This document shows, in pieces, positions 17,284-30,836 of a DNA stretch of 45,587 nucleotides. Each line of letters starts with the position of its first letter. The stretch's first letter is position 1. Source of the stretch: Pseudobutyrivibrio sp. (GTDB taxonomy: Bacteria; Bacillota; Clostridia; Lachnospirales; Lachnospiraceae). Made by a program: the position numbers and the translations under genes. The stretch is taken from assembly GCF_017471675.1 (NCBI RefSeq), contig NZ_JAFUSK010000049.1, positions 1-45,587 on the forward strand, written 5' to 3'. Below the pieces are notes generated by a model. It worked only from the letters and a program-made list of their open reading frames with translations. It was not told where the DNA came from and ran no database searches.

Positions 17284-18543
17284 TTACCTATTGAAAAACT
17301 CTACGAATTCCTCATAGCCTTCTGCTGAAAGCTGCTCCTTCTGGAACTTCTTATTCTTGTTCATACGTACTACAAGAACTGTCTCACCATTTGCACGGGC
17401 TGCCTTAGCCTGCGCCATAACCTCTGTAAGCTTATCTGCTGGATACCCCTTCTCAACAAGATAAGCCACTTTCTTGTTAGCACCTGGCACCTTGAAGCCC
17501 TGCTCCATAAGAAGAAGGATAATACGCTCAAATCCAATTGAGAAACCACATGCAGGAGTGTTCTGACCTGTAAAGTTACCAATCATCTTATCGTAACGTC
17601 CACCGCCGCCGCAGCTTCCGCCAAACTCTGGAATAGCAATCTCAAAGATTGTACCTGTATAATAGCTCATTCCACGTACAAGTGTAGGATCAAATACAAG
17701 CTCAAACTCAGCTTCCTTAGTAGCATTAACAGCTGTTGCAATCTCACGCATCCAGTTAGCTACTTCTTCATCAAGGAACTCACCAAGCTTAGAAAGTAAA
17801 ATTTCCATGCCTGCAGCAACATCCTTAACATTATCAAGTGCGTCAAACAAATCTACATATTTATCGATAGATTCCTGTGGATAACCAGCCTCAAGAAGCT
17901 CCTTAGAAACTCCATCAAGACCAATCTTATCCATCTTATCAAGTGTAATGAAGATTGAATCGTAATCCTCCTCAGCAAAGCCTGCGTATGCAGCCATAGC
18001 CTTAAGGATACGACGCTCGTTAATACGGATTTCAAAATTCTTAAAACCGATGCGGCCAAGTGTAGTAGTGGTTGCAAGGATAAGCTCTATCTCTGCAAGG
18101 TTGCTAGGCTCGCCTAAAATATCGATATCACACTGAGTGAACTGACGATAACGACCACGCTGAGGTCTATCAGCTCTCCAAACAGAACCAATCTGAAGTG
18201 ACTTAAATGGTGAAGTAAGCTCGTTAGCATGGTTAGAATAGAAGCGGCAAAGAGGTACTGTAAGGTCGTATCTCATACCAAAATCTACAACATCCTCCTC
18301 AGTAGTAGCCTCTGGGATGTTAAGCTTCTCGCCACGCTTCATTACCTTGAAGATAAGCTTTTCGTTCTCGCCACCCTGCTTATTTGAAAGATTGCCAATA
18401 GACTCCATTGCTGGTGTCTCGATTGGTGTAAATCCAAATGAGCGATATGTCTCCTTAATAATAGAAGTAACATAATCTCTAACTTCCATTTCATAAGGAA
18501 GTATATCCTTCATTCCGTTAACTGGTTTCTTGTTTAAAGCCAT
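17284..18543 (-). CDS. hisS: Histidyl-tRNA synthetase
   Basis: A 419-aa class II aminoacyl-tRNA synthetase that charges tRNA-His in the cytoplasm. Visible signatures are the motif 1 region around GFTPIETPAMES, motif 2 FKSLQIGSVWRADRPQRGRYRQFTQCDIDI, the HisA motif LVRGMSYYTGTIFEI and motif 3 CGFSIGFERI, with a C-terminal anticodon-binding domain. Length is normal. AGAGAGG precedes the ATG at 18543. It overlaps hemZ by 10 bp and is probably co-transcribed with it. Confidence 0.97.
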   Translation of the reverse strand: MALNKKPVNGMKDILPYEMEVRDYVTSIIKETYRSFGFTPIETPAMESIGNLSNKQGGENEKLIFKVMKRGEKLNIPEATTEEDVVDFGMRYDLTVPLCRFYSNHANELTSPFKSLQIGSVWRADRPQRGRYRQFTQCDIDILGEPSNLAEIELILATTTTLGRIGFKNFEIRINERRILKAMAAYAGFAEEDYDSIFITLDKMDKIGLDGVSKELLEAGYPQESIDKYVDLFDALDNVKDVAAGMEILLSKLGEFLDEEVANWMREIATAVNATKEAEFELVFDPTLVRGMSYYTGTIFEIAIPEFGGSCGGGGRYDKMIGNFTGQNTPACGFSIGFERIILLLMEQGFKVPGANKKVAYLVEKGYPADKLTEVMAQAKAARANGETVLVVRMNKNKKFQKEQLSAEGYEEFVEFFNR

Positions 18544-19973
18544 TTTAAATCCTCTCTAAGTCTTTCTCTTTTTCTTTCTATCATTTCATCAATTCTGTCC
18601 ATGTAAAGCTGAACATCCTTGACATTCTCACATCTTGTAACTGTGGCACCATGGTCTGCAACAAACTTACATGAACAGCCTGCGCCAAGTGCCATTATAG
18701 TTTGTTTTTCTTCCATTATCAAGATATTATAGAGTCCTTCTTTGTCAGAAGTTGCATATCCTATGTTCTCAAGGTTAGCAGCCATGTTCTTTTGCCTGTA
18801 TAGATAGTAAGGCTTAAGGTTGAGCTTATTAGCTGTTTCAAGGCATGCATCCATGTGAGCCTGTGAGTTTTCGATTAAATAATCATCATAAGCTTCCTTA
18901 TCTATGTTAAGCCTTGCAGAATGCTTCAAAGCCAGTGAATGGACAGTCAGATTATCTGGGGACAGCTTTTCAATCTCTGATAATGTGTATCTTACATCTT
19001 CTATTGTCTCACCTGGAAGCCCAAGTATTAAATCCATATTGATATCATCAAAGCCAAGCTCCTTGGCCCAGCCATATACCCTGTAGATATCCTCCACCTT
19101 ATGGAATCTTCCTATTAAATCCAAAGTCTTTTGATTCATGGTCTGTGGATTAATAGAAATCCTGGTGATAGGATGATTCTTCATAATTTGAAGCTTCTCG
19201 TAGGTGATGGAATCTGGACGGCCTGCCTCGATAGTGTATTCCAGCAAATCTGTGGTGTTGAAATATCTATCAACCAGCTCTAAAAGCTTCTGTAAATGCT
19301 CTTCATCAAGGGATGTTGGGGTTCCCCCACCAATATAGATAGTGGTAAGCTTTTTATCCTTACATGCCTCAGCGGTAAATGCAATCTCCTTTTCAAGAGC
19401 ATTTAGATAATCATCTAATTTCTTCTTCCAAAGACCTATTGGATATGAAGTAAACGAACAGTAAAGGCAGGTGCTTGGGCAAAATGGAATTCCAATATAA
19501 ACAGAATACCCATTGTCATAATCAATTCCTGATAAAAGCTCATGCTCCTTGTGTGAAACCTGAAGGCTCAAGGCTATCTTTTCATCTGATGTAAGGTAGG
19601 TCTTTTTCATGTAATCAGCTACCTCTTCATCTGATGCGCCCTGTTCTATCATGCCAAGGCTAATTTTGGTAGGACGAATGCCTGTAAGTGTCCCCCAAGG
19701 CAAAGTCTTTCCTGTGCGCTTGCTTATGCTTTCATAAATAGCAAGCTTAAGACGATTCTTAGTATCAGGCCTGTTGGAATAATCTATCTCAACCTCCCTG
19801 CCATCTAATGTAAGCTTGTAGTCTGCGTATTTAACGTCCATGGTAAATAAGATGTCCTCATCAGTCGGTGCATCCGCAGTGCCGATGCGCACCTCCTGCT
19901 TAGGATAAAATGCCTTTACCAGGGAATAAATGTCGTATTCAAAATTATCTTCGTTTAACTTTACGTATATCAT
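18534..19973 (-). CDS. hemZ: Radical SAM coproporphyrinogen dehydrogenase-like HemZ
   Basis: A 479-aa radical SAM protein of the HemZ group, formally an oxygen-independent coproporphyrinogen III oxidase homologue. The iron-sulfur motif reads CPSTCLYC (~residue 165), with IYIGGGTPTSL following and the HemN-like stretch ITRISINPQTMN further on. Members of this group in Firmicutes are often annotated in haem synthesis although their real substrate is uncertain, and no other haem genes are here. Its N-terminal ~150 residues are the HemZ-specific extension. It overlaps hisS. The ribosome site before the ATG at 19973 is weak. The 52-bp-period array lies immediately upstream. Confidence 0.9.
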   Translation of the reverse strand: MIYVKLNEDNFEYDIYSLVKAFYPKQEVRIGTADAPTDEDILFTMDVKYADYKLTLDGREVEIDYSNRPDTKNRLKLAIYESISKRTGKTLPWGTLTGIRPTKISLGMIEQGASDEEVADYMKKTYLTSDEKIALSLQVSHKEHELLSGIDYDNGYSVYIGIPFCPSTCLYCSFTSYPIGLWKKKLDDYLNALEKEIAFTAEACKDKKLTTIYIGGGTPTSLDEEHLQKLLELVDRYFNTTDLLEYTIEAGRPDSITYEKLQIMKNHPITRISINPQTMNQKTLDLIGRFHKVEDIYRVYGWAKELGFDDINMDLILGLPGETIEDVRYTLSEIEKLSPDNLTVHSLALKHSARLNIDKEAYDDYLIENSQAHMDACLETANKLNLKPYYLYRQKNMAANLENIGYATSDKEGLYNILIMEEKQTIMALGAGCSCKFVADHGATVTRCENVKDVQLYMDRIDEMIERKRERLREDLKWL

Positions 19974-20000
19974 ATCTTTGTTCCTAATTATCTATGGAGC

Positions 20001-20350
20001 TTACTATCTGTGCATACTTTTTGTTATCAAGATAGTAGTGCTCTCTTGCACTTTTACTATCTGATTTTGATTTTCAATCTTAGATAGTAGTATGCTGTGG
20101 ACTTATTACTACCTATATTTGATTTTTTATAATGGATAGTAGTAATATTCATATTTCTTACTATCTAAATCATTTTTTCCTTCGCAGATAGTAAATGTTT
20201 GTCATTCAGCTACTACCTCAGCTCAAAATTTCTTACTAGATAGTAAATAATTGTTAAGTAACTACTATCTCAACTCTAATTGTCTTATCAGATAGTAGTT
20301 CTGTTCTTATTGGCTACTATCTAATATTAAATCTTTCTTTTAGATAGTAA
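20001..20350. repeat. Inverted-pair array 1: seven units, 52-bp period
   Basis: Seven units each consist of arm YTACTAYCT, a variable 19-nt loop (20 in the first), the complementary arm RGATAGTAR and a variable 15-nt linker. Left arms start at 20001, 20054, 20106, 20158, 20210, 20262 and 20314, so the spacing is 53 once and then 52 five times. Only the arms are conserved; loops are T-rich but differ. It fills most of the hemZ upstream region and contains no gene. Confidence 0.93.
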
Positions 20351-20360
20351 TTATAGGTTT

Positions 20361-20473
20361 TTGATTTTCATCAGAAAATCAAGAACCGGAGATTGACCAA
20401 TATTTTCTAAAAGAAAATATTGCTTGGCAAAGCCAAGTTCTTGTGGGCTTTTTCCTTAAGTAGCCCACAAGAA
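20361..20473. repeat. Cluster of four perfect hairpins, three directly abutting
   Basis: Perfect stems are TTGATTTTC/GAAAATCAA (20361-20382), CAATATTTTC/GAAAATATTG (20398-20422), CTTGGC/GCCAAG (20423-20437) and TTCTTGTGGGC/GCCCACAAGAA (20438-20473). The last three touch without a spacer. The end near 20473 lies 15 bp beyond the stop codon of the MBL-fold gene, so one stem may act as its terminator, but T runs are poor. Confidence 0.75.
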
Positions 20474-20488
20474 GTTATAGTTCTGATT

Positions 20489-21115
20489 TTAGCTCAAATA
20501 AGGATTGTATAATCGTTCTTCGCTAATTGTGGTTGGTTCGTTGTGGCCTGGGTAACAGATGGTGTCGTCATCCAACACTAGAAGCTTACTCTTAATGCTA
20601 CCTACCAACTGGCTCATAGAGCCGCCTGGGAAATCAGTGCGACCAACTGAACCTGCAAACAGTGTGTCCCCTGTAAACACAATGCCTTCTTTTTCAAAAT
20701 AGAAGCAGCAGCCACCTGGAGTGTGACCTGGTGTAAACAGACACTTTACCTTAAGTCCTGCCAGCTCTATTACTTCATCATCCTTTAGAAAGATATCTGC
20801 CCTGTATGTTTCGCTGCTTCCATACATATCTGCAGATAGATTGATAGATGGATTTTTAAGCTCGTCGGCGCAGGCCTCATGTGCGTATATCTTAATCCCG
20901 TATTCATCTGCAATGGTAGCAGCCTCACCAGCATGGTCAAAATGCCCATGAGTAAGAAGCACTGCCACAGGCTTAGTGCCAGTCTGTGCTACTGCAGACT
21001 TTACCCTATCTGCCGCAGAGCCTGGATCGATAATAATAGATTCTTTTGTTTCCTCATTAATAGCCAGATAGCAATTCTCCATCGCTGCTGGCAACATCAC
21101 TTTTGCTACTTTCAT
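20489..21115 (-). CDS. MBL-fold metallo-hydrolase (glyoxalase II-like)
   Basis: A 208-aa cytoplasmic metallo-beta-lactamase-fold enzyme, probably a thioester or similar hydrolase of the glyoxalase II/YcbL type. Metal ligands are seen in THGHFDHAG (~residue 57), the single His in FTPGHTPGG, Asp in FTGDTLF and His in CYPGHNEPT. The ATG at 21115 is chosen for its GGAGAGG ribosome site and because the protein aligns from MKVAKVML; an ATG at 21214 would extend into rel. It follows rel by 76 bp, a gap that holds a 10-bp hairpin. Confidence 0.92.
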   Translation of the reverse strand: MKVAKVMLPAAMENCYLAINEETKESIIIDPGSAADRVKSAVAQTGTKPVAVLLTHGHFDHAGEAATIADEYGIKIYAHEACADELKNPSINLSADMYGSSETYRADIFLKDDEVIELAGLKVKCLFTPGHTPGGCCFYFEKEGIVFTGDTLFAGSVGRTDFPGGSMSQLVGSIKSKLLVLDDDTICYPGHNEPTTISEERLYNPYLS

Positions 21116-21134
21116 ATTCCTCTCCAAAATAGTA

Positions 21135-21164
21135 GAACAGCTATCTACTTTGAAATAGCTGTTC
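21135..21164 (-). terminator. Hairpin between rel and the MBL-fold gene
   Basis: Stem GAACAGCTAT/ATAGCTGTTC with a 10-nt loop lies between the rel stop codon and the MBL ribosome site. There is no strong T run, so it may attenuate transcription or stabilise RNA rather than terminate. Confidence 0.5.
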
Positions 21165-21191
21165 CAACCGCCAAATTTATTAAGTTCTATA

Positions 21192-23495
21192 TTATCCTCT
21201 AGGGCGTTCAACATCTATGATTGATTCAACCTGCTTAATCTTCTCAACTAATGAGCGAAGCTGTTCACGGCTCTGGGTGCCGAACTTGATGGTGATTGTA
21301 GCAACGCCCTGCTTGCTGGTCTTAGAATGGATTGAATCGATATCGATTTCTCTTTCAGTAAAGATACGAGTAATATCTACAAGAAGTCCTGTACGATTGT
21401 TGCCGTAGATATTGATTTCTGTAAGATATACGCCGCCCTTCTTGCCTTCATCCTCAGAATCTGTAGCCCACTCTGCCTCGATTAATCTTTCCTTTTCAAA
21501 ATCAGGTAGGTTAATCATATTGATGCAGTCAGTACGGTGGATGGAAACACCACGACCTCTGGTTACGAAGCCAACGATTTCGTCACCTGGCACTGGATTA
21601 CAACACTTAGAGAAACGAACTGAAACATCATATATACCGCTTACTGTAATGCCGTTCTTAGATTTAGGCTTAATCTTTTCGTTGCCACCTGAATGCTCAG
21701 CAAGAACATCCTCATCGGTCATCTTAATAGGATGATCCTTCTGCCATTCAGAATACATTCTGTTAATGACAGCGCCTTCCTTGATAGCGCCCTGGCCTAC
21801 AGCTGCAAGACAATCATCCCAGCTGTGGAAGCCGTATTTATTCTTGATTAATTCCTGATATTTAGGCTTGTTTACCTCTCCAAGGTCTACTCCCTTTTGC
21901 TTAGCAGAACTGATGAGCAATTCCTTACCCTTAGCAATATTCTCATCCTTGGACTGGCTTCTGAACCACTGATTAATCTTGTTCTTAGCCTGTGAACTCT
22001 TAACAATGCTAAGCCAATCACGGCTAGGGCCGTTTGTGTTCTGAGAGGTGACGATTTCGATACGGTCACCATTTTGGATAACGTAATCAATTGGAACAAG
22101 CTTGCCATTAACCTTAGCACCAATCATGCGGTTACCTACAGCAGAATGGATGGCATAGGCAAAATCGATAGGTGTAGAGCCGTTAGGCAAATTCTTAACA
22201 TCTCCTGATGGAGTAAAACAAAATACTGTATCCGAAAACAGATTAAGGTCTGATTTAAGAAGGCTTGAAAACTCCTTATTATCGGAAATCTCCTGCTGCC
22301 ACTCAAGGATTTCACGAAGCCAGGAAAGCTTCTCTTCCTCGCCCATAACTGTAGAGCCTTCGCCGCTTTCCTTGTATTTCCAGTGGGCTGCGATACCGTA
22401 TTCACTGGTGCGGTGCATTTCATAGGTACGAATCTGTATCTCAAAAGGCGAACCGTTAGGACCGATAACAGTAGTATGTAAGGACTGATACATGTTAGGC
22501 TTAGGCATAGCAATGTAGTCCTTAAAACGTCCTGGAATTGGAGTGTACATCTCATGGATTACACCAAGGGCTGCATAACAATCCTTGATAGAATCAACAA
22601 TAATGCGCACTGCGAACAAATCATATATCTGATCGATGGTCTTATTCTGATTAACCATCTTCTTGTAAATGCTGAAGAAATGCTTAGCTCTTCCGTATAC
22701 CTCTGCATCAATATCAGCATCCTTGATATGCTTAGCCACATCATCTACTAAAGAATTAATATATTCGTTACGCTGATTCTTTCTGAGGGCAACCTTCTCC
22801 ACTAAATCGTAGTAGGCTTCTGGCTCAAGATACTTAAGTGATAAATCATCAAGCTCTATCTTAACCTTGCTGATACCAAGACGCTGTGCCAAAGGAGCGT
22901 AAATTTCCATGGTCTCCTTAGCCTTTTCCTTTTGCTTCTCAGGGCGCATATACTTAAGCGTGCGCATGTTATGAAGCCTATCTGCAAGCTTAATAAGGAT
23001 AACGCGAATATCCTTAGCCATAGCAAGAAACATCTTACGAAGGTTCTCAGCCTGGATTTCCACCTTATCCGCATCGTAATTCAATTGACCTAATTTGGTA
23101 ACGCCATCAACAAGCTCTGCTACTTCCTCAGAGAACTCTGTTGCTATTTCTTCCTTAGTATATATGGTGTCCTCCACCACATCATGAAGAAGCCCTGCAA
23201 CGATAGTCTCTTTATCAAGCTCAAGATCTGCAAGAATGATTGCAACGCAAAGAGGATGAATGATATAAGGCTCCCCAGACTTGCGAACCTGACCCTCATG
23301 AGCCTTGCTGGCAAGCTGATAGCCCTTTTCAATCATAGAGATATCAGTGTTAGGATGGTACTTGCGAACCCTATCGATAAGCTCACGGTAAAGCACATCA
23401 GGGTCAACAAAATCTTCCGTAGCGATGACACCATGTCCATCCATAGCAATCTTGTTCTCAAGCTGTTGTAAATCGGCCTGATTGTAATCTGACAT
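21192..23495 (-). CDS. rel: Bifunctional (p)ppGpp synthetase/hydrolase
   Basis: A 767-aa long RSH enzyme controlling the stringent response. The hydrolase domain is in the first ~200 residues (KAHEGQVRKSGEPYIIHP, HD motif in LLHDVVEDT, LIKLADRLHNMRTL). The synthetase domain follows (GRAKHFFSIYKKM, YDLFAVRIIV, GRFKDYIAMPKPNMYQSLHT). A TGS domain (FCFTPSGDVKNLPNGSTPIDFAYAIH) and a C-terminal ACT domain complete it. Both catalytic domains look intact. I choose ATG 23495, with GGTGG upstream, over an upstream in-frame ATG at 23567. It is divergent from the ABC-F gene. Confidence 0.96.
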   Translation of the reverse strand: MSDYNQADLQQLENKIAMDGHGVIATEDFVDPDVLYRELIDRVRKYHPNTDISMIEKGYQLASKAHEGQVRKSGEPYIIHPLCVAIILADLELDKETIVAGLLHDVVEDTIYTKEEIATEFSEEVAELVDGVTKLGQLNYDADKVEIQAENLRKMFLAMAKDIRVILIKLADRLHNMRTLKYMRPEKQKEKAKETMEIYAPLAQRLGISKVKIELDDLSLKYLEPEAYYDLVEKVALRKNQRNEYINSLVDDVAKHIKDADIDAEVYGRAKHFFSIYKKMVNQNKTIDQIYDLFAVRIIVDSIKDCYAALGVIHEMYTPIPGRFKDYIAMPKPNMYQSLHTTVIGPNGSPFEIQIRTYEMHRTSEYGIAAHWKYKESGEGSTVMGEEEKLSWLREILEWQQEISDNKEFSSLLKSDLNLFSDTVFCFTPSGDVKNLPNGSTPIDFAYAIHSAVGNRMIGAKVNGKLVPIDYVIQNGDRIEIVTSQNTNGPSRDWLSIVKSSQAKNKINQWFRSQSKDENIAKGKELLISSAKQKGVDLGEVNKPKYQELIKNKYGFHSWDDCLAAVGQGAIKEGAVINRMYSEWQKDHPIKMTDEDVLAEHSGGNEKIKPKSKNGITVSGIYDVSVRFSKCCNPVPGDEIVGFVTRGRGVSIHRTDCINMINLPDFEKERLIEAEWATDSEDEGKKGGVYLTEINIYGNNRTGLLVDITRIFTEREIDIDSIHSKTSKQGVATITIKFGTQSREQLRSLVEKIKQVESIIDVERPRG

Positions 23496-23661
23496 GATAT
23501 CACCACCTTTCCAAAAATTTTTATTAAATATTATATAATTTAACAGGGTAAAAAGCAATAATGCCATGCTGAAACTTTTGGCAAAATCTAGACATTTTTA
23601 TGTTTTTTTGATAAACTATTTCAGGTTTATTTTAATTGAGTTTTTGAAAGGACTATTTTTA

Positions 23662-25299
23662 ATGATTCAAGCAAATAATGTCACTCTTCGTTTTGGCAAG
23701 AAAGCCTTATTTGAAGAGGTTAATATCAAATTTACAGAGGGTAACTGCTACGGTATCATCGGTGCTAACGGCGCTGGTAAGTCTACATTCCTTAAGATTT
23801 TATCAGGTCAGCTTGAGCCTACCAGTGGTGAAATCACTATGAGCCCTGGCAACCGCCTTTCATTCTTAGAGCAGGACCACTTCAAGTATGATGAGTTCAC
23901 AGCTCTTGATACAGTTATCATGGGTAATCAGCGTCTTTACGATATCATGAAGGAAAAGGACGCTATATATATGAAGGAAGACTTCTCTGACGAGGATGGT
24001 ATCCGTGCTGCTGAGCTTGAGAGCGAGTTTGCAGAGATGGATGGTTGGAATGCAGAGTCAGATGCAGCTACACTTCTTAACGGACTTGGAGTTGATACAG
24101 AATTCCACTACACATTAATGAGCGAGCTTCCTGGTGCTCTTAAGGTCAAAATCCTTCTTGCACGTGCACTTTTCGGTTCACCAGATGTTCTTCTTCTTGA
24201 TGAGCCTACTAACCACTTGGATTTGGATGCTATTGCATGGCTTGAGGAGTTCCTTATTAACTTTGAGAACACAGTCATCGTTGTATCCCATGACCGTTAC
24301 TTCCTTAACAAGGTATGTACACAGATTGCAGATATTGATTACGGTAAGATTCAGCTTTACGCTGGTAACTATGATTTCTGGTATCAGTCATCACAGCTTA
24401 TTATTCAGCAGCGTAAGGAAGCTAACAAGAAGAAGGAAGAACAGATTAAGGAATTGCAGGAATTCATCCAGCGATTCTCTGCTAACGCTTCTAAGTCTAA
24501 GCAGGCTACATCTAGAAAGCGTGCATTAGAGAAGATTCAGCTTGATGACATCCGTCCTTCTAGCCGTAAGTACCCATACATCGATTTCAGACCAGCTCGT
24601 GAAATTGGTAACGAGGTTCTTTCAATCGAGAATCTTACAAAGACAATTGATGGAGAGCTTATTCTTGACCATCTTACATTTAATGTTGGTCGTGAAGATA
24701 AGATTGCTTTCGTTGGTTCTAACGAAAAGGCAAAGACAGTATTATTCCAGATTCTTGCTGGTGAGATGGAGCCAGACGAGGGAAGCTACAAGTGGGGCGT
24801 TACTACAAGCCAGTCTTACTTCCCTAAGGACAACACTAACATCTTTAATACAGACCTTCTCATTGTAGATTGGCTTACACAGTTCTCTGAGATTAAAGAT
24901 GCTACTTATGTACGTGGTTTCCTTGGCCGTATGCTTTTTGCAGGTGATGACGGTGCTAAGAAAATGAAGGTTTTATCCGGTGGTGAAAAGGTACGTGTTC
25001 TTCTTTCACGAATGATGATTGAAAACAGCAATGTGCTTATGCTTGACGAGCCTACTGACCACTTGGATATGGAGTCTATTACAGCCTTAAATACAGGACT
25101 TCAGAAGTTCTCAGGCGTAATCCTCTTCTCTTCTCGTGACCACGAAATCGTACAGACAACAGCTAACCGTATTATTGAGATTCTTCCAAATGGACAGATG
25201 ATTGATAAGATGACTACATATGATGAGTACCTTGAGTCAGATGAAATGGCTAGAAAGCGTACCGTACTAGAAATGTCTTCAAATGATTTAGATGACTAA
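23662..25299 (+). CDS. ABC-F ATPase (YbiT-like)
   Basis: A 545-aa soluble protein with two ABC domains and no membrane segment, of the ABC-F family that acts on the ribosome in translation or antibiotic protection. Domain 1 has Walker A GANGAGKST, signature LPGALK and Walker B LLLDEPTNHLD. A charged interdomain linker (~residues 245-305, KKKEEQIKELQEF) follows. Domain 2 has an altered P-loop GSNEKAKT in place of GxxGxGKS/T, then LSGGEKVR and LMLDEPTDHLD. The altered P-loop is, as I recall, a feature of the YbiT-like subgroup. The start at ATG 23662 has AAAGGA upstream; longer in-frame extensions lack a ribosome site. Confidence 0.93.
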   Translation: MIQANNVTLRFGKKALFEEVNIKFTEGNCYGIIGANGAGKSTFLKILSGQLEPTSGEITMSPGNRLSFLEQDHFKYDEFTALDTVIMGNQRLYDIMKEKDAIYMKEDFSDEDGIRAAELESEFAEMDGWNAESDAATLLNGLGVDTEFHYTLMSELPGALKVKILLARALFGSPDVLLLDEPTNHLDLDAIAWLEEFLINFENTVIVVSHDRYFLNKVCTQIADIDYGKIQLYAGNYDFWYQSSQLIIQQRKEANKKKEEQIKELQEFIQRFSANASKSKQATSRKRALEKIQLDDIRPSSRKYPYIDFRPAREIGNEVLSIENLTKTIDGELILDHLTFNVGREDKIAFVGSNEKAKTVLFQILAGEMEPDEGSYKWGVTTSQSYFPKDNTNIFNTDLLIVDWLTQFSEIKDATYVRGFLGRMLFAGDDGAKKMKVLSGGEKVRVLLSRMMIENSNVLMLDEPTDHLDMESITALNTGLQKFSGVILFSSRDHEIVQTTANRIIEILPNGQMIDKMTTYDEYLESDEMARKRTVLEMSSNDLDD

Positions 25300-25303
25300 A
25301 ATT

Positions 25304-25331
25304 AAAAGCCTTGCCAACCGGCAAGGCTTTT
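25304..25331. terminator. Bidirectional terminator after the ABC-F gene
   Basis: Stem AAAAGCCTTGCC/GGCAAGGCTTTT lies 5 bp past the ABC-F stop and directly before the end of the minus-strand small ORF. With A and T runs on both sides it can serve both genes. Confidence 0.88.
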
Positions 25332-25332
25332 A

Positions 25333-25464
25333 TTAATCTATGCACACAACCTTTAGTGCACAATTAGAAACAAATTCAGTGACAATCCCCTTATCTTTTA
25401 GCTCGAAAGCCTTTCTAATAACCTCGTCTACTGTACAGCAATTAATGATCTGTCCTACTACCAT
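25333..25464 (-). CDS. Small hypothetical protein (43 aa)
   Basis: A 43-codon ORF too short for most gene finders. It begins MVVGQIINCCTVDE and ends CALKVVCID. Evidence for expression is an AGGAGG ribosome site 8 nt before the ATG at 25464 and a terminator at its end. It contains four Cys in two groups (CC near residue 9 and two close to the C terminus), which could bind metal, but no family is recognised. It lies between the convergent ABC-F gene and the Nudix gene, with its own intergenic space (25465-25594). Confidence 0.6.
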   Translation of the reverse strand: MVVGQIINCCTVDEVIRKAFELKDKGIVTEFVSNCALKVVCID

Positions 25465-25594
25465 TTTTTCATACCTCCTAAATTTGTGTTTGTTTTTGTT
25501 TCTGAAAAGATAATACCATGTGATTTGTCACATAAGTGTCACACAGGATATATTAATGATTTTTGAGATTCACATTCAATTTCATATTCCAAAA

Positions 25595-26050
25595 TCATTC
25601 GGTAAAGTAGTCAATTAGATTATCGTCACAGTCATAAATTAACTTAACAGTAAAAAAGTCTTTATTTGTATTTAAAAGCTCCAGGAAAACTTTATCCCCC
25701 TCCCACAGGTTTAGCTCCAGCACTTTATCAATATCTACCCACTGCAGCTCGCCCTCATCACACTCCGCCTTCATCTCTCCAGTGAAATCATCACAAGTGT
25801 AAAGAAAAGTATGCTCTGTCACATCACCCATTACAAATGTAATAAATCCCCTGGCTGTGATTTCGCCAGCCATAAACCCAGTCTCCTCATATATCTCTCG
25901 CCTAATGCAATCCGCTGGTGACTCTCTTTCTTCCACATGTCCACCTACACCAATATACTTCCCCGCGTTAATATCATGCCCCTTCTTAGTGCGATGCAGC
26001 ATTAAATATTTATTATCCTTTATCAAATAGCACAGTGTTGTAAATGTCAT
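25595..26050 (-). CDS. Nudix hydrolase (MutT/8-oxo-dGTPase type)
   Basis: A 151-aa cytoplasmic pyrophosphohydrolase. The Nudix box is complete: GHVEERE, then seven residues, then REIYEETGF (residues ~37-59), giving the Mg-binding Glu residues. The N-terminal strand MTFTTLCYLIKDNKYLMLHRTKKG and length resemble MutT-like enzymes that clean oxidised nucleotides, though substrates in this family are diverse. The ATG at 26050 follows AGGAGAG. It is a single-gene unit at the edge of the repeat island. Confidence 0.92.
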   Translation of the reverse strand: MTFTTLCYLIKDNKYLMLHRTKKGHDINAGKYIGVGGHVEERESPADCIRREIYEETGFMAGEITARGFITFVMGDVTEHTFLYTCDDFTGEMKAECDEGELQWVDIDKVLELNLWEGDKVFLELLNTNKDFFTVKLIYDCDDNLIDYFTE

Positions 26051-26135
26051 GAGCTTCTCTCCTTTTCTTTCGCCTTAGCCTAATTATATCATCTTCGGCC
26101 ATTGTTTTGGCTCCCGCATTTCTTTTGCTTAACCA

Positions 26136-26175
26136 GGGTGACAGCCAGCGGCGGGGTGCGGTGGTTATGCCTATT
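26136..26175 (+). repeat. Island border element, copy a
   Basis: It starts GGGTGACAGCCAGCGGC and ends GGTGGTTATGCCTATT. It is the left border of array 2. Four related copies lie at 26509-26549, 27395-27431, 27702-27739 and 28184-28224, all in the same orientation. Confidence 0.85.
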
Positions 26176-26231
26176 GTTTTTGTTGTGGTTTTTGTATGGC
26201 TCTTCAACCGTTAGTTGTACTTTAGCCTTTT

Positions 26232-26487
26232 GAGTATGACTATATGAGGATTCTGATGTTGTCATACTTGAAAATTGTTGGATTGTGGCATTTTGTATAG
26301 TTTTAAGTATGACTTTTTGCTTATTTCTATGGTGTCATACTCTGAATGAAGATGAAGCGTACCTCCATCAGTCATTCTGCGTATATTTTCTTAGATTTCG
26401 CCAAAAGTCATACTTTAAAATACGATATCACCCTTGAATACCTTGATATGAAGTATGACTGAAGGATATAGCCACATTTGTCATACT
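26232..26487. repeat. Inverted-pair array 2: four units, 73-bp period
   Basis: The unit is AGTATGAC, a 20-nt variable loop, GTCATACT and a 37-nt variable linker. Right arms start at 26261, 26334, 26407 and 26480, exactly 73 bp apart. Left arms start at 26233, 26306 and 26452, with the third (near 26380) reduced to GTAT. The array sits between border elements a and b, in DNA without any gene. Confidence 0.92.
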
Positions 26488-26508
26488 TTATTTTTTCAGC
26501 ATTCAAAT

Positions 26509-26549
26509 GTGAACAGCCAGCGGCATGATGCGCGGTGGTTATGCCTATT
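26509..26549 (+). repeat. Island border element, copy b
   Basis: GTGAACAGCCAGCGGCATGA at the left and GCGCGGTGGTTATGCCTATT at the right. GGCAT and ATGCC within it can pair as a small hairpin. It closes array 2 and precedes the toxin-antitoxin-like pair. Confidence 0.87.
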
Positions 26550-26590
26550 ATCTTTTATGCCAGAGATAGCAAAATCTCTATGTATATCAG

Positions 26591-26618
26591 TTGTAAATTC
26601 ACGATACCGTGATATAAT
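26591..26618 (+). promoter_or_regulatory. Promoter and operator of the DUF4160/DUF2442 pair
   Basis: TTGTAA (26591-26596), a 16-bp spacer and a perfect TATAAT (26613-26618). The spacer contains the palindrome TCACG-ATAC-CGTGA (26599-26612). A repressor bound there would block the promoter, as in autoregulated toxin-antitoxin operons. Confidence 0.78.
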
Positions 26619-26637
26619 ATTGACAAGGAGTAATGTT

Positions 26638-26892
26638 ATGCCAGTTATATCAAGATTTAATGGTATTGTGATTAGAATGTATTTTCTTTCCAGTGAACAC
26701 AATCCACCACATATTCACGCTATTTACGGTGATCAGATTGCAGCTATTGATTTTCAAAAAAACGAAGTTATAGAAGGTGATTTACCTTTACGCGTACTTC
26801 AATTAGTACTTAAATGGACTTCTTTACACCGAAATGAATTACTGAAAATATGGGAGACACAAGAATTTGTAAAAATTCCCCCATTAGAATAG
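26638..26892 (+). CDS. DUF4160 protein, probable toxin-antitoxin component
   Basis: An 84-aa DUF4160 protein beginning MPVISRFNGIVIRMYFLSSE and carrying the family motif HNPPHIHAIYGD, rich in His. Family members are regularly paired with DUF2442 proteins and are suspected toxins; no activity is established that I can cite. The start at ATG 26638 has AAGGAG 8 nt upstream; the longer in-frame ORF running upstream covers array 2 and lacks a ribosome site. It is 9 bp from the partner gene and shares a promoter with a palindromic operator. Its AT-rich composition and the repeat island around it suggest a mobile origin. Confidence 0.87.
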   Translation: MPVISRFNGIVIRMYFLSSEHNPPHIHAIYGDQIAAIDFQKNEVIEGDLPLRVLQLVLKWTSLHRNELLKIWETQEFVKIPPLE

Positions 26893-26901
26893 GAGGCGTT
26901 T

Positions 26902-27339
26902 ATGTTTCATAAAATTAAAGATATTCAAGTCACTGATGATTATAAATTAAATGTCTTGTTCGTCGAAGGTCAACGAAAACTATACGATATTAAAGCACTT
27001 GCTGAAAAATATCCAATGTTCAATGAGCTAATTGCTAATTCCACTTTATTTAAAAGTGCAAAAATTGATATTGGTGGATACGGCATAGTATGGAATGATG
27101 AGCTAGATATTTCATGTGATGAACTATGGGAAAATGGTTTGAAAATTAATTCTCCTTTTGACGGACTTATGGCACTACGAGATGCCACTGAAATGTGGGG
27201 ATTAAACGAAAGTACCCTCAGGCATGCCATTATGTACGGAAAGTTCATTCTAGGAATTGATGTATGTAAATTTGGAAAACAATGGGTCATTTCATATGAA
27301 TCTATGAAAAGAGTATACGGTGAGCCAAAGGCTAGCTAA
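26902..27339 (+). CDS. DUF2442 protein with C-terminal DNA-binding domain, probable antitoxin
   Basis: A 145-aa protein. Residues 1-~85 form a DUF2442 domain (FHKIKDIQVTDDYKLNVLF through IVWNDELDISCDELWENG). Residues ~95-140 resemble a helix-turn-helix domain (LRDATEMWGLNESTLRHAI, then KFGKQWVISYESMKRVYG) found in many such antitoxin-like proteins. It probably binds the DUF4160 product and the TCACG...CGTGA operator upstream. AGGAGG lies 6 nt before the ATG at 26902, and an intrinsic terminator follows the stop. Confidence 0.85.
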   Translation: MFHKIKDIQVTDDYKLNVLFVEGQRKLYDIKALAEKYPMFNELIANSTLFKSAKIDIGGYGIVWNDELDISCDELWENGLKINSPFDGLMALRDATEMWGLNESTLRHAIMYGKFILGIDVCKFGKQWVISYESMKRVYGEPKAS

Positions 27340-27346
27340 TTTAAAC

Positions 27347-27389
27347 AATGCGGAATTACCTTCAAGTATGGCAATTCTGCATTTTTTAT
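27347..27389 (+). terminator. Terminator of the DUF4160/DUF2442 operon
   Basis: Stem AATGCGGAATT/AATTCTGCATT with one G-T pair is followed by a T-rich run. It lies 7 bp after the stop codon. Confidence 0.85.
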
Positions 27390-27394
27390 TTTTT

Positions 27395-27431
27395 CTAGCC
27401 AGCGGCACGATGCACGGTGGTTATGCCTATT
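27395..27431 (+). repeat. Island border element, copy c
   Basis: CTAGCCAGCGGCACGATG followed by CACGGTGGTTATGCCTATT. It opens the second repeat block, directly after the operon terminator. Confidence 0.87.
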
Positions 27432-27486
27432 TATATGTGTAGCTAAGGAATTGCGAAGTGATTAACTTATTAAGAGACCTGGCATA

Positions 27487-27681
27487 AACACGCAGATGGA
27501 TAGGCTTCGTTCTCGTGCGTGTATGGATTAGTTACTTATGACACGCACATGGGTGATTCTTGCTCTCCTGCGTGTCGGGATGGGACGCTTGTGACACGCA
27601 CACAGAAGACTATTGTTCTCCTGCGTGTATGAGGTAGCTGATTAGGACACGCATTGGGAATACTTTGGCTCTGGTGCGTGC
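27487..27681. repeat. Inverted-pair array 3: four units, 53-bp period
   Basis: Left arms ACACGCA start at 27488, 27541, 27594 and 27647; right arms TGCGTGT start at 27516, 27569, 27622 and 27675 (the last ends in C). Both series are exactly 53 bp apart. The loop is 21 nt and the linker 18 nt. The loop is not fully free: TTCTCC or a close variant precedes most right arms. The block lies between border elements c and d. Confidence 0.93.
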
Positions 27682-27701
27682 TTTTGCTTTTATTTTACAC
27701 T

Positions 27702-27739
27702 GGTGACAGAGGAATGGATGCGCGGGATGTATGCCTATT
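27702..27739 (+). repeat. Island border element, copy d (divergent)
   Basis: It starts GGTGACAGAGGAATGGATGC and ends GGGATGTATGCCTATT. It separates arrays 3 and 4 and is the least conserved copy with copy e. Confidence 0.75.
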
Positions 27740-27819
27740 TATAGGTATGTATGGGTTGGGTATCACTATAGAGATGAAGGACATAATAGGTGATGGAATA
27801 TGTGGTTTCTATAGCTTGT

Positions 27820-28167
27820 CGTGTCACAGAGGCAACGAGTTAATTGCATTTGTAATAGACTGTGTGACAGTAATCAGGTGAACTAGTGCAATTTCTGTCA
27901 CAGGCTGTACGTAATTATAATGTTTCTTTGAATCTGTGTGACAGGATTCGAGGATTTCGGACATGATTCTGTCACAGATGCAATGTTTTTTCTGAATTTG
28001 TGGCAATAGCTGTGACAGAGTTTTGATGTATTTGCTCTTGTTCTGTCACAGCATAAATGTATTTATGGGATTTGTAGATTTTTTTGTGACAGAAAATAGG
28101 TCTATGGATTGGATTTCTGTCACAATGTCGACGTAATTCAGAGATTTTCTGGGGTTTCTGTGACAGA
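27820..28167. repeat. Inverted-pair array 4: five units, 74-bp period
   Basis: Arms TGTCACA start at 27822, 27896, 27970, 28044 and 28118. Their complements TGTGACA start at 27863, 27937, 28011, 28085 and 28159. Both series repeat at exactly 74 bp. In the best units the arms extend to TCTGTCACAG and CTGTGACAGA. Spacer lengths alternate at about 32 and 22 nt, and both spacer types are variable. It lies between border elements d and e, with no gene. Confidence 0.93.
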
Positions 28168-28183
28168 ATCCATACATAAAGCA

Positions 28184-28224
28184 GGGCGACAGCTAGAGAA
28201 GGATGTGCAGGAGCTATGCCTATT
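28184..28224 (+). repeat. Island border element, copy e (divergent)
   Basis: It starts GGGCGACAGCTAGAGAAGG and ends GGAGCTATGCCTATT. It closes array 4 and ends about 20 bp before the terminator of the next minus-strand gene. Confidence 0.75.
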
Positions 28225-28242
28225 TTTATGCACATATAGCAA

Positions 28243-28262
28243 GAGCACCCCGAAGGGTGCTC
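28243..28262 (-). terminator. Hairpin after the Ala-rich secreted protein gene
   Basis: Stem GAGCACCC/GGGTGCTC with tetraloop CGAA lies 45 bp beyond the stop codon at 28308. The T run on the minus strand is poor, so termination is likely but not certain. Confidence 0.6.
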
Positions 28263-28307
28263 CGCCTATAAAGGAATTAGTATTGATATGAAAGTATCTT
28301 ATCAAGA

Positions 28308-30836
28308 TTAAGGTGTTGTAGTTTCCTCTGTCTCTGTAACTCTGATGTTGTTAACTTCTCTAACCTGACCATTTGCTGTATCTAGCTGGCTCTGCGCTGT
28401 GTTTTCCATAGTTGTTGCATCATACAATGCCTTGTCAGCATCAGATTTGTTTGTTGTAGCAGTCTCTACAGCCTTATCAGCAGTTTCGATTGCGTCTTCA
28501 TCTTCCTTAATTTGGCCATCAATATCCTCTAGAGCAGTTTCCTTAGTAGCCTTGTCTTTAGCTAAAATGTCGTTATCTGCCTTCTCTTTGTCAGCATCGT
28601 ATTCACCATCAGTATCTTCGCCATAACGCTCTTTAACCAATAAAGACCTTTCAAACTTAGCGTCATCGACTGCCTTAGTAGCTGCATCTACTTTTGCCTG
28701 CTGCTCAGCCTCTACTTTTGCCTTATTATCAAGAGCAGCATCTGTTGCCTCCTTTGCTTTTTCTACTGCTGTAGTCTTGGTTGCAACATCTTCTTGTTTT
28801 GTTTTAAAATCATTTGCATTGTTTGCTGAAGTAGTTGCTTTACTGTAAGCAGTATTATATGCTTTATTTAAAGCCTCTATTGCAGCAGCTGCAGCTTCTC
28901 CAGCAGTTGTTCCAACTTGCTCAGCTGTTTTGTAACCAGTTAGCTTTGAGACATCTGCTTCTGCAGCTGTTTTTCCATCCAAAGTTGCTGGAGTAGTAAT
29001 AACACCTGCTGTCTTTAAATTAGTTTGTGCAGTAGATAATGCCTCTTTTATAGAATCATCTACAGCAGCATCTGCTGAAGTACCAAGCTGTCCAAATGCG
29101 TCATTATAAGCCTTTACAGCTGTTGCATAATCTGCTATCGCTTGTTCAGCTGCTGTTTTAGCACTTTGGTATGCAGAATCAGCTGCCGCACGTTCTGCTC
29201 TAGCCAAAGCCTTGTCATCTACCTTACCATCAGATGCAACACCTGGTACGGCCTTATTCAATGCAGTTTCAGCTTCTGTAACTGCCTTTGCATCCTTAGT
29301 AGCTACTGCGTCAAGATACTGCTGGTATAGTTCTACAGCCTTATCTGTTTCAGTTCCATCATCTGCAATATATGCATCTGTTGAATCTTTCTTAGATTCA
29401 TCTATCTTGATTCCTGCTTCATAAGCCGCTTTGTATGTAACTTTCTCAATTGCTGTAACCAATGCATCTGTTGCAGTCTTAAGATCCTTTACAGTACCTA
29501 CATTTTCATCAACTACAGCATTTCCATCTGTATCTGTTTTTATCGAACCATCAGTTCCTTTTTCATATGCAAAAGCTTTCTCAGCCTCAGTTACAGCTGC
29601 AGTAGCTACCTTCATAGCATCAGCCATATCCTTTTTAGCTTTAGTCTCAGCCTGCTTTGCTTCGTCAATGGTTGCTTGAGCATCTGCAAGGTTCTTATCA
29701 CTTACAGCAATTTGATTATCAATCGCATCTATATAGCTCTGAGTAGCTGTCTTTTCAGCAACTGCAGCATCCTTTGCATTCTTTGCTGCTTCTGCTGCAA
29801 CCTGGGCAGCTTTTAATGCTGTATCCGCCTTATCAACTGCTTCTTGAGCTGCTTCCTTATTTTTCTGTGCAGCATCAAGTGTTTTTGTAGCCGAATCTAC
29901 AGCACTTGCTGCAGCATCTGCTGCTGCACTCTTGTTAGCTGCTGTAGGATGTGTTTTTGCTGTAGTTATTGCTGTTGCAGCTGCATCTACTAGCTTCTGT
30001 GTATCATCTACCGCTTTTTGTGTGGTTGTATTAGAACCTTTATCTCCTGCAATGGCATCTACTGCATCACTAACAGTTTTATTTGCTGACGCTAAACTAG
30101 AAACATTTGCTGCAGTTAAAGCTGCCTGTGCCTCTGTATTTGCAGTATTTGCAGTAGCTAAAGCCTTAGCTGCAGATTCAGTTGCAGCCTTTGCTGTATT
30201 GTATGCCTGCTCTGCTGCAGTTGCTCCAGGTACAGCTGCGCTTGAGCCACCGCTTGCTCCGCCTGAGCTGCCGCCAGAAGATGAACTAGAGCTGCTGCCT
30301 GCTGCCGTCTTTACGCCACCTGGGAGGATGTTCTCAGCTGGGAAGCCGCCGAGGGTACGGTGCTCCTTGATACCGTTTGTAGCGAAGTGCTGGTAGTAAG
30401 ATGCTGTGTTGTCGCCAAATGCTGCTGCAAGGTCAGGGTAAGCTGCCTTGTATGCATTTACATCAAAGTACTGGTTAATCTTACGGCCTTCGTTGATACC
30501 AAATGCCATGAAGTGCTGGAATAATTTGTCAGCGTCTGTTCCGAATACTGCTACTACGTCTGGATAGAGCTGAGCATAAAGCTTAGCATCAAAAATCTGG
30601 CGAAGTGGCGAATTAGCAAGGTCTTCAGCACTAGCTGCTCTACCTTCTTTCTTACCGAATGTGTTGTAGTGATTCTCCAAAGCCTTTGGAGTAGTTCCTA
30701 CTACTGCTACTACATCTGGGTTCTGCTTTGCATAGTAACTTGCATCAAATGCTGCAAATGCAGGCACTGATGTAGCAACTGTTGTTGCAGCAACTGTAGC
30801 TGCCATAAGTCGTACAAGTTTCTTGTTTCTAGTCAT
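28308..30836 (-). CDS. Secreted alanine-rich coiled-coil protein with N-terminal EGR-type repeats
   Basis: An 842-aa exported protein. A signal peptide ends at PAFA (~residue 28). Three ~45-residue repeats follow (residues ~29-165), each of the form FDA..YA..YPDV.A.FG...L..H....G..EGR. A Ser/Gly linker lies near 180-205. The remaining ~630 residues are rich in Ala, Lys, Thr, Asp and Glu, and look like a long coiled coil. No membrane helix, sortase motif or cell-wall domain is seen at the C terminus, which ends ETEETTTP. The role may be a surface fibre or adhesin; this is a guess. AGGAGGG precedes the ATG at 30836, and three palindromic sites lie just upstream. Confidence 0.83.
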   Translation of the reverse strand: MTRNKKLVRLMAATVAATTVATSVPAFAAFDASYYAKQNPDVVAVVGTTPKALENHYNTFGKKEGRAASAEDLANSPLRQIFDAKLYAQLYPDVVAVFGTDADKLFQHFMAFGINEGRKINQYFDVNAYKAAYPDLAAAFGDNTASYYQHFATNGIKEHRTLGGFPAENILPGGVKTAAGSSSSSSSGGSSGGASGGSSAAVPGATAAEQAYNTAKAATESAAKALATANTANTEAQAALTAANVSSLASANKTVSDAVDAIAGDKGSNTTTQKAVDDTQKLVDAAATAITTAKTHPTAANKSAAADAAASAVDSATKTLDAAQKNKEAAQEAVDKADTALKAAQVAAEAAKNAKDAAVAEKTATQSYIDAIDNQIAVSDKNLADAQATIDEAKQAETKAKKDMADAMKVATAAVTEAEKAFAYEKGTDGSIKTDTDGNAVVDENVGTVKDLKTATDALVTAIEKVTYKAAYEAGIKIDESKKDSTDAYIADDGTETDKAVELYQQYLDAVATKDAKAVTEAETALNKAVPGVASDGKVDDKALARAERAAADSAYQSAKTAAEQAIADYATAVKAYNDAFGQLGTSADAAVDDSIKEALSTAQTNLKTAGVITTPATLDGKTAAEADVSKLTGYKTAEQVGTTAGEAAAAAIEALNKAYNTAYSKATTSANNANDFKTKQEDVATKTTAVEKAKEATDAALDNKAKVEAEQQAKVDAATKAVDDAKFERSLLVKERYGEDTDGEYDADKEKADNDILAKDKATKETALEDIDGQIKEDEDAIETADKAVETATTNKSDADKALYDATTMENTAQSQLDTANGQVREVNNIRVTETEETTTP

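Follow-up and report, generated by a model that had tools for sequence, protein, structure and literature searches.

Dispersed arrays of alternating inverted arms in Pseudobutyrivibrio as candidate phased DNA-binding sites with a REP-like layout

The window, a stretch of 45,587 nucleotides from a Pseudobutyrivibrio draft genome, contains four short arrays, named here A to D. Array A (20002-20349) has seven units of TACTAYCT-N19/20-AGRTAGTA at a period of 52 bp, and its arm is written TACTATCT in the naming used for family A. Array B (26233-26487) is built from AGTATGAC-N20-GTCATACT at a period of 73 bp. Array C (27488-27681) has four units of ACACGCA-N21-TGCGTGT with a period of 53 bp. In array D (27822-28165), TGTCACA and TGTGACA alternate at 41 and 33 bp, with a period of 74 bp. 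No strand is assigned to any of the four. Array A lies 28 bp before the start codon of a radical-SAM gene (18534-19973, minus strand) and downstream of a gene for a metallo-beta-lactamase-fold protein (20489-21214, minus strand). Between that gene and the array, and abutting the latter, is a palindromic repeat of ~128 bp (20352-20480, minus strand).

Arrays B, C, and D, together with a gene pair, are bounded by a 35-bp direct repeat ending TATGCCTATT, which is absent from the first-pass annotation of this DNA. There are five copies, all on the plus strand, at 26141-26175 (before array B), 26515-26549, 27397-27431, 27705-27739, and 28190-28224. The fifth lies close to a large gene (28308-30836, minus strand), ~85 bp away from its 3' end. 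The gene pair lies between arrays B and C. Its first gene encodes a DUF4160 protein of 84 aa (26638-26892, plus strand; Pfam E=1.3e-19) and its second a protein of 145 aa with DUF2442 and HTH_59 (26902-27339, plus strand; Pfam E=8.5e-11 and 8e-10). The pair is presumably toxin-antitoxin-like. Pieces of it also occur between arrays B and C at the loci L041 and L043. A single record of the phage database was matched, over the gene-pair stretch (Dulem virus 33, 70% match, 13% of the query), and a search of the plasmid database gave no match. The large gene, on the side of array D, appears by eye to be alanine-rich and surface-protein-like, and it has no Pfam match. A similar large gene at L008 (7638-10010) also adjoins an array, and the two genes share 86% identity along 580 bp of their 5' ends.

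Visual comparison suggests that the boundary repeat is similar to a degenerate array unit. The five copies at first resembled the recombination sites of integron-like cassettes. This candidate was set aside. Across 299 genomes, chosen at roughly one for each genus of the family, the motif matched in 5. These are the genome of the window, one genome of the same genus (L045, apparently in coding sequence), and three others with one match each.

A detector with no preset arm was used, which looks for 8-mer arms (at most one mismatch) and their reverse complements in regular alternation, with a constant period. The alternating inverted arms and the periods of 52, 73, 53, and 74 bp, as they had been described in the first-pass annotation, were recovered at all four arrays, with scores of 14 (A), 7 (B), 8 (C), and 10 (D). 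Shuffled sequence served as the control (50 dinucleotide shuffles amounting to 1,165,910 bases, ten for the window and ten for each of four other loci). A score of 4 was reached there in 25 places and was never exceeded, against 7-14 for the arrays. Real sequence outside the arrays holds a few matches with a score of 5, one of them at 29763 in the window's repetitive gene. The distance from left to right arm had been put at 28-30 bp in arrays A to C. It is indeed constant, with slightly different values: 27-28 bp in A, 28 bp in B, and 28 bp in C. Array D has two gaps, 41 and 33, and its arms are near-palindromic (TGTSACA).

The arrays are dispersed through the genus Pseudobutyrivibrio. Family-A pairs (TACTAYCT-N18..21-AGRTAGTA) occur 54 times in the genome of the window, against 0 for the reversed pattern. 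The stricter TACTATCT pattern is present in 12 of the 29 genomes of the genus, three of them with one pair each. When 84,980 species, each represented by a single genome, were searched with a three-arm family-A pattern, 27 stretches were found, all titled Pseudobutyrivibrio, and a scan of viral contigs for the family-A pattern found none. A second array with B arms is located on contig C34 of the same genome as the window; it too has boundary repeats on both sides, and the gene next to it resembles the neighbour of array D. Other genomes of the genus carry arrays with the same arms and periods. At L043 the order is E, B, gene pair, C, and D, and other loci of the genus have parts or rearrangements of this order.

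Further arm families with the same layout came from running the detector on stretches fetched for other purposes. These are TTACCACTG, ATGCATCC, and CACTTAA in the genome of the window and, elsewhere in the genus, TGACGCCTA (G008), TACTGCC (G022), and TACGTGA and TTTATCAA (G028). The AGTATCACTT arm family was found in G008 through the AGTAT pattern. At L187 a TTACCACTG array continues into a family-A array with the 52-bp phase kept. In 20 stretches of 17-20 kb from the genome of the window, chosen regardless of arrays, the detector found one array. In 20 stretches from three other genomes of the genus it gave three matches, one of them AT-rich and doubtful. A low-power sample of 372,960 bases from ten other genera of the family gave one match only, an ordinary 146-bp tandem palindromic repeat (L279 9658-10150). 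At L208 16258-16825 there is an AT-rich repeat with a period of 63, directly upstream of a gene that by eye is ParA-like, and this is possibly a partition or replication site.

Family-A arrays taken as matching form five sets (2-5 sequences each, matched by spacer similarity and neighbouring-frame lengths without a tree, one set being two arrays of one genome). Within these sets the identity is 95.1% for the arms (2160 comparisons), 84.9% for the five bases at the centre (687), 70.6% for the remaining inner spacer (1914), and 74.4% for the linkers (1932), with 38 gap cells, figures that are biased towards conserved arms where loci of other genomes were found by the arm pattern, as most were. 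Arrays B, C, and D were found through the boundary repeat and not by an arm pattern. Their arms are 87% (B) and 92% (C) identical and their spacers 60% and 61%, with family C aligned at differing unit numbers and in an uncertain register; for D, with two sequences, the values are 98.7% and 89.1%. Neutral drift of arms and period in related genomes had been named as what would speak against a selected, length-constrained element. In the relatives it is the spacers that drift and the arms that are conserved, together with the spacing, which supports such an element. Three related C arrays differ in length by whole 53-bp units, and some arrays (L058 and L134, for example) are near-perfect tandem repeats. 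Both would fit a functionless satellite formed by tandem duplication and subsequent decay. That origin is highly improbable, because arms and spacing are kept while spacers drift and because unrelated arm families have one geometry in common; families A, B, and C speak against it, barring gene conversion confined to the arms.

The shape of the family-A unit was taken from 34 de-duplicated arrays with 192 units, a set in which the same locus in different species is counted separately and from which units with more than three arm mismatches or no in-step neighbour were dropped. It reads Y-TACTAYCT-R, free bases, an A/T stretch, free bases, and Y-AGRTAGTA-R. All 148 units with a 19-base spacer have A or T at the dyad centre. 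The spacers had been described as not conserved. They are variable, as was said, but not unconstrained; the centre of family A is solely A/T, and where the spacer adjoins the arms it is mostly R/Y. Compared with the other spacer bases, the central 5 have a higher A/T content in 11 of 14 family/gap rows (0.73 against 0.41 in family C). The A/T-rich centre is missing in E, the first gap of D, and the second gap of W, and one row is empty.

The spacing between arms of the same orientation was collected over the range of 30-115 bp. In the 14 families other than A there are 250 such spacings, and 194 of them fall at 51-53 (98), 61-64 (8), or 71-74 bp (88). The remainder consists of 33 half-steps of 33/41 (family D), 4 double periods, and 19 spacings that fit none. 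These classes correspond to 5, 6, or 7 turns of DNA, with steps of about one B-DNA turn, so that the whole-turn periods of a phased site array are present in 194 of 250 spacings and in family A too. Vector strength over the spacings is broad, with 0.80 at 10.2-10.4 bp. Because the loci were picked by a period detector and the families possibly share ancestry, no probability is given for the helical steps. In family A the left arms are 52 or 53 bp apart in 227 of 267 cases. A smaller peak, one turn less, is found at 42 (4 left and 4 right, partly from related loci). The distances between facing arms are rigid as well, at 27-28 for the inner (268 of 286) and 25 for the outer one (226 of 250). 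Family G is anomalous, with left arms 61-62 and right arms 71-72 apart.

Phased DNA-binding sites were one of the two readings that had been proposed for these arrays. The conservation of arms and spacing across genomes, the period steps of one helical turn, and the A/T-only dyad centre support it for these predicted sites. The arrays are probably rows of phased, dyad-symmetric candidate binding sites for putative DNA-bending proteins, acting like REP/BIME. Each unit would be a dyad of two inverted half-sites of 8-10 bp, with an A/T-only centre at which a dimer would bend the DNA. As units repeat at whole helical turns (every 5, 6, or 7), successive dimers would share one face of the helix and could stack or wrap the DNA cooperatively. 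Proteins would be expected to bind the arrays, and different arm families may be read by different, perhaps paralogous, proteins. The stacked complex could mark where transcription units end and so form an architectural or topological boundary of the sort proposed for BIMEs, or could have a role in supercoiling. A broader form of this reading is tentative, a possibility on which doubt prevails. In it the arrays would be a chromosome-wide punctuation with one geometry (dyads with an A/T centre, 5-7 turns apart), half-site codes specific to each family, and a putative, undescribed family of architectural DNA-binding proteins that diversified along with these codes.

The arrays are mostly located 3' of open frames. 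Plain open reading frames were used for these counts. Of 34 family-A arrays, 30 have frames on both sides, and these are co-directional in 24 cases, convergent in 5, and divergent in 1. For the 22 arrays listed from the genome of the window, among which several of the AGTAT type score below the detector threshold, 19 have frames on both sides (14 co-directional, 4 convergent, and 1 divergent). Array B, between divergent genes, is an exception to this placement. Some arrays fill almost the entire gap between co-directional frames. The units are polar relative to transcription, with the central A-tract found on the sense strand in most of them. A cognate gene beside the arrays was also looked for; the frames that flank the 22 arrays share no obvious family by eye.

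The placement 3' of frames and the polarity of the A-tract follow transcription. Together with the nearly filled gaps, they would suit transcribed hairpins that act as RNA, whether as stabilisers of mRNA 3' ends, as protein-binding hairpins, or as processed guides of the TIGR type. Single units do fold as RNA hairpins, better than shuffles in four of six strand tests (z -3.4 to -4.1). If the arms act as RNA stems, their changes should pair. When partners were shuffled within family-A arrays, no arm position paired above chance (lowest p 0.13), and the reading of the arrays as processed hairpin RNAs, the other of the two first proposed, thus finds no support. The variable arm position 6 of family A has TA in 119 units, CA in 39, TG in 19, and CG in 9 (p=0.48). 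At the innermost spacer position the association is opposite to pairing (p=0.0001). On the sense strand of co-directional arrays A-C mismatches (42) exceed G-U pairs (19) overall; the excess is due to '--' arrays (33 against 9), and '++' arrays are even (9 against 10). Periods that step by the turn of B-DNA also speak against RNA.

A signal towards pairing does exist outside the arms. The second base outside family-A arms is complementary in 92 of 189 units against 67 expected, and 0 of 400 shuffles over all arrays were as high. The excess is weak when shuffled within arrays (94 against 86.6, p=0.06). In family E 12 of 15 are complementary (p=0.01), and family U has p=0.07. This outer-flank pairing leans towards a stem and counts slightly against DNA sites and slightly in favour of RNA. 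An Rfam search over 19900-28350 gave four sub-gathering matches and none that reached the gathering score of its family. The whole-genome check for Nop-domain proteins that had been suggested was run with PF01798 over the genome of the window (98% complete draft) and nothing passed the cut-off; the sole match has E=0.09, below the cut-off, and stops inside. The likeness to dual-spacer guide arrays that had been raised is therefore left unsupported by both searches. A function of the arrays as RNA is considered decidedly unlikely.

The reading of the arrays as phased DNA sites has its own difficulties, and these were counted against it. With several unrelated arms in a single genome, more than one binder would be required. 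The polarity that the units have relative to transcription would be superfluous in a symmetric site. The unequal arm spacing of family G, the position of array B between divergent genes, the rows without an A/T centre, the complementarity of the outer flanks, and the folding of units as hairpins were counted in the same way.

The arms could instead be phased sites for a transposase or recombinase, in non-autonomous mobile elements that are selected for mobility and not for the host. Two family-A arrays on contigs C29 and C79 of the genome of the window lie next to different frames; they show 85% identity along 310 bp that include the spacers, and this homology ends within ~10 bp of the outer arms. 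Between two family-G arrays the identity is 90% along 245 bp. Two B arrays have their arms and boundary repeats in common, and their neighbour genes are similar, with no mutual BLAST match at 1e-12. Palindromic repeats abut some of the arrays. These observations argue for mobility. However, a resident copy would drift, and the arms of matching arrays in different genomes are ~95% identical. By eye, the C29 and C79 edges show no common terminal motif or target duplication. The genome of the window has 0 matches to Y1_Tnp (PF01797), the one transposase profile searched. The array carriers G002, G003, G004, G008, G022, and G023 have none either. Matches are present in 10 of the 29 genomes of the genus, including five array carriers (G007, G009, G013, G024, and G028). 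Mobile elements are, on this evidence, an unlikely explanation for the arrays.

The ~128-bp repeat beside array A has 18 matches in its own genome, nine of them full-length, and the copy in the window is 95% identical to the query copy. It has three hairpins by eye and is MITE-like, and the copy in the window has no Rfam match above the gathering score. The repeat directly adjoins arrays at C19 (the window) and C79 and is no more than ~250 bp from arrays at C11, C7, and C44; at C15, C24, and C26 no array was detected nearby. Copies include G000 C11:1972-2099 and C79:13767-13893, and others are on C15, C4, C26, C24, C44, and C7. Two subtypes were seen, whose stems differ and yet still pair, and parts of the repeat occur alone as single palindromes. 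The family-G arrays at L192 (14558-14629) and L198 (10080-10141) start at the apex of its third hairpin, each beside a different half of the repeat, as if the junction arose at the hairpin tip. It looks like a MITE-like or structured-RNA repeat that is often near arrays.

No description of such arrays was found in the open-access literature searched, where the Pseudobutyrivibrio-group matches among those listed are general works. In CRISPR loci the repeats are direct, 20-40 bp long, and separated by unique spacers. Here the layout is different, with arms of 7-10 bp that alternate with their reverse complement, and it bears out the first-pass annotation, which had set CRISPR aside. The res sites of resolvases have inverted half-sites and sub-sites spaced by whole helical turns, with three sub-sites beside their own gene. 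The arrays here share the inverted half-sites and the whole-turn spacing, and differ in having ~3-8 units per array and many loci.

The reason for the existence of REP elements is still debated. They are hypothesised, in PMC3733652, to act in supercoiling, termination, or mRNA stability. The same source places REPs mostly between co-directional and convergent genes and describes a palindrome with a GTAG or CGTC tag at its base (PMC3733652). The arrays here are similarly placed, mostly between co-directional or convergent genes (24+5 of 30 and 14+4 of 19). Like REP elements and BIMEs, they have palindromic units in alternating orientation, are extragenic and lineage-specific, and occupy many loci per genome. 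Unlike those, their arms vary from array to array, their spacers are free save for the centre, and their spacing is fixed to ~1 bp at whole turns. Membership of the arrays in REP/BIME is thus partial.

REPINs, as described in PMC3116915, have inverted conserved arms around a less conserved spacer, are dispersed, and form tandem higher-order arrays. In these respects the arrays here are alike, with an inverted pair of arms around a less conserved spacer, dispersed loci, and tandem arrays. A REPIN/RAYT system was rejected, as PF01797, the profile used for a cognate RAYT, has 0 matches in the genome of the window. TIGR arrays have repeats that are conserved within a locus and differ between loci, with two spacers per unit, and some are palindromic stem-loop arrays; their units give 36-nt guides, have spacers of 8-12 nt and box C/D motifs, and lie beside Nop-domain Tas genes (PMC12045711). 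Locus-specific repeats and two spacers per unit are in common with the arrays here. TIGR-Tas was rejected, against these features, on periods of 52-74, longer spacers, and the lack of a Nop match past the cut-off in the genome of the window.

As judged from their sequence, the arrays have a REP-like layout with unrelated arm families and helical spacing, and in this combination they differ from REP, REPIN, TIGR, and CRISPR as described. A layout of this kind, in which the arms are unrelated and yet the spacing is in whole turns, points to DNA architecture as the selected property, and this in turn would bear on the debated purpose of REP-like elements.
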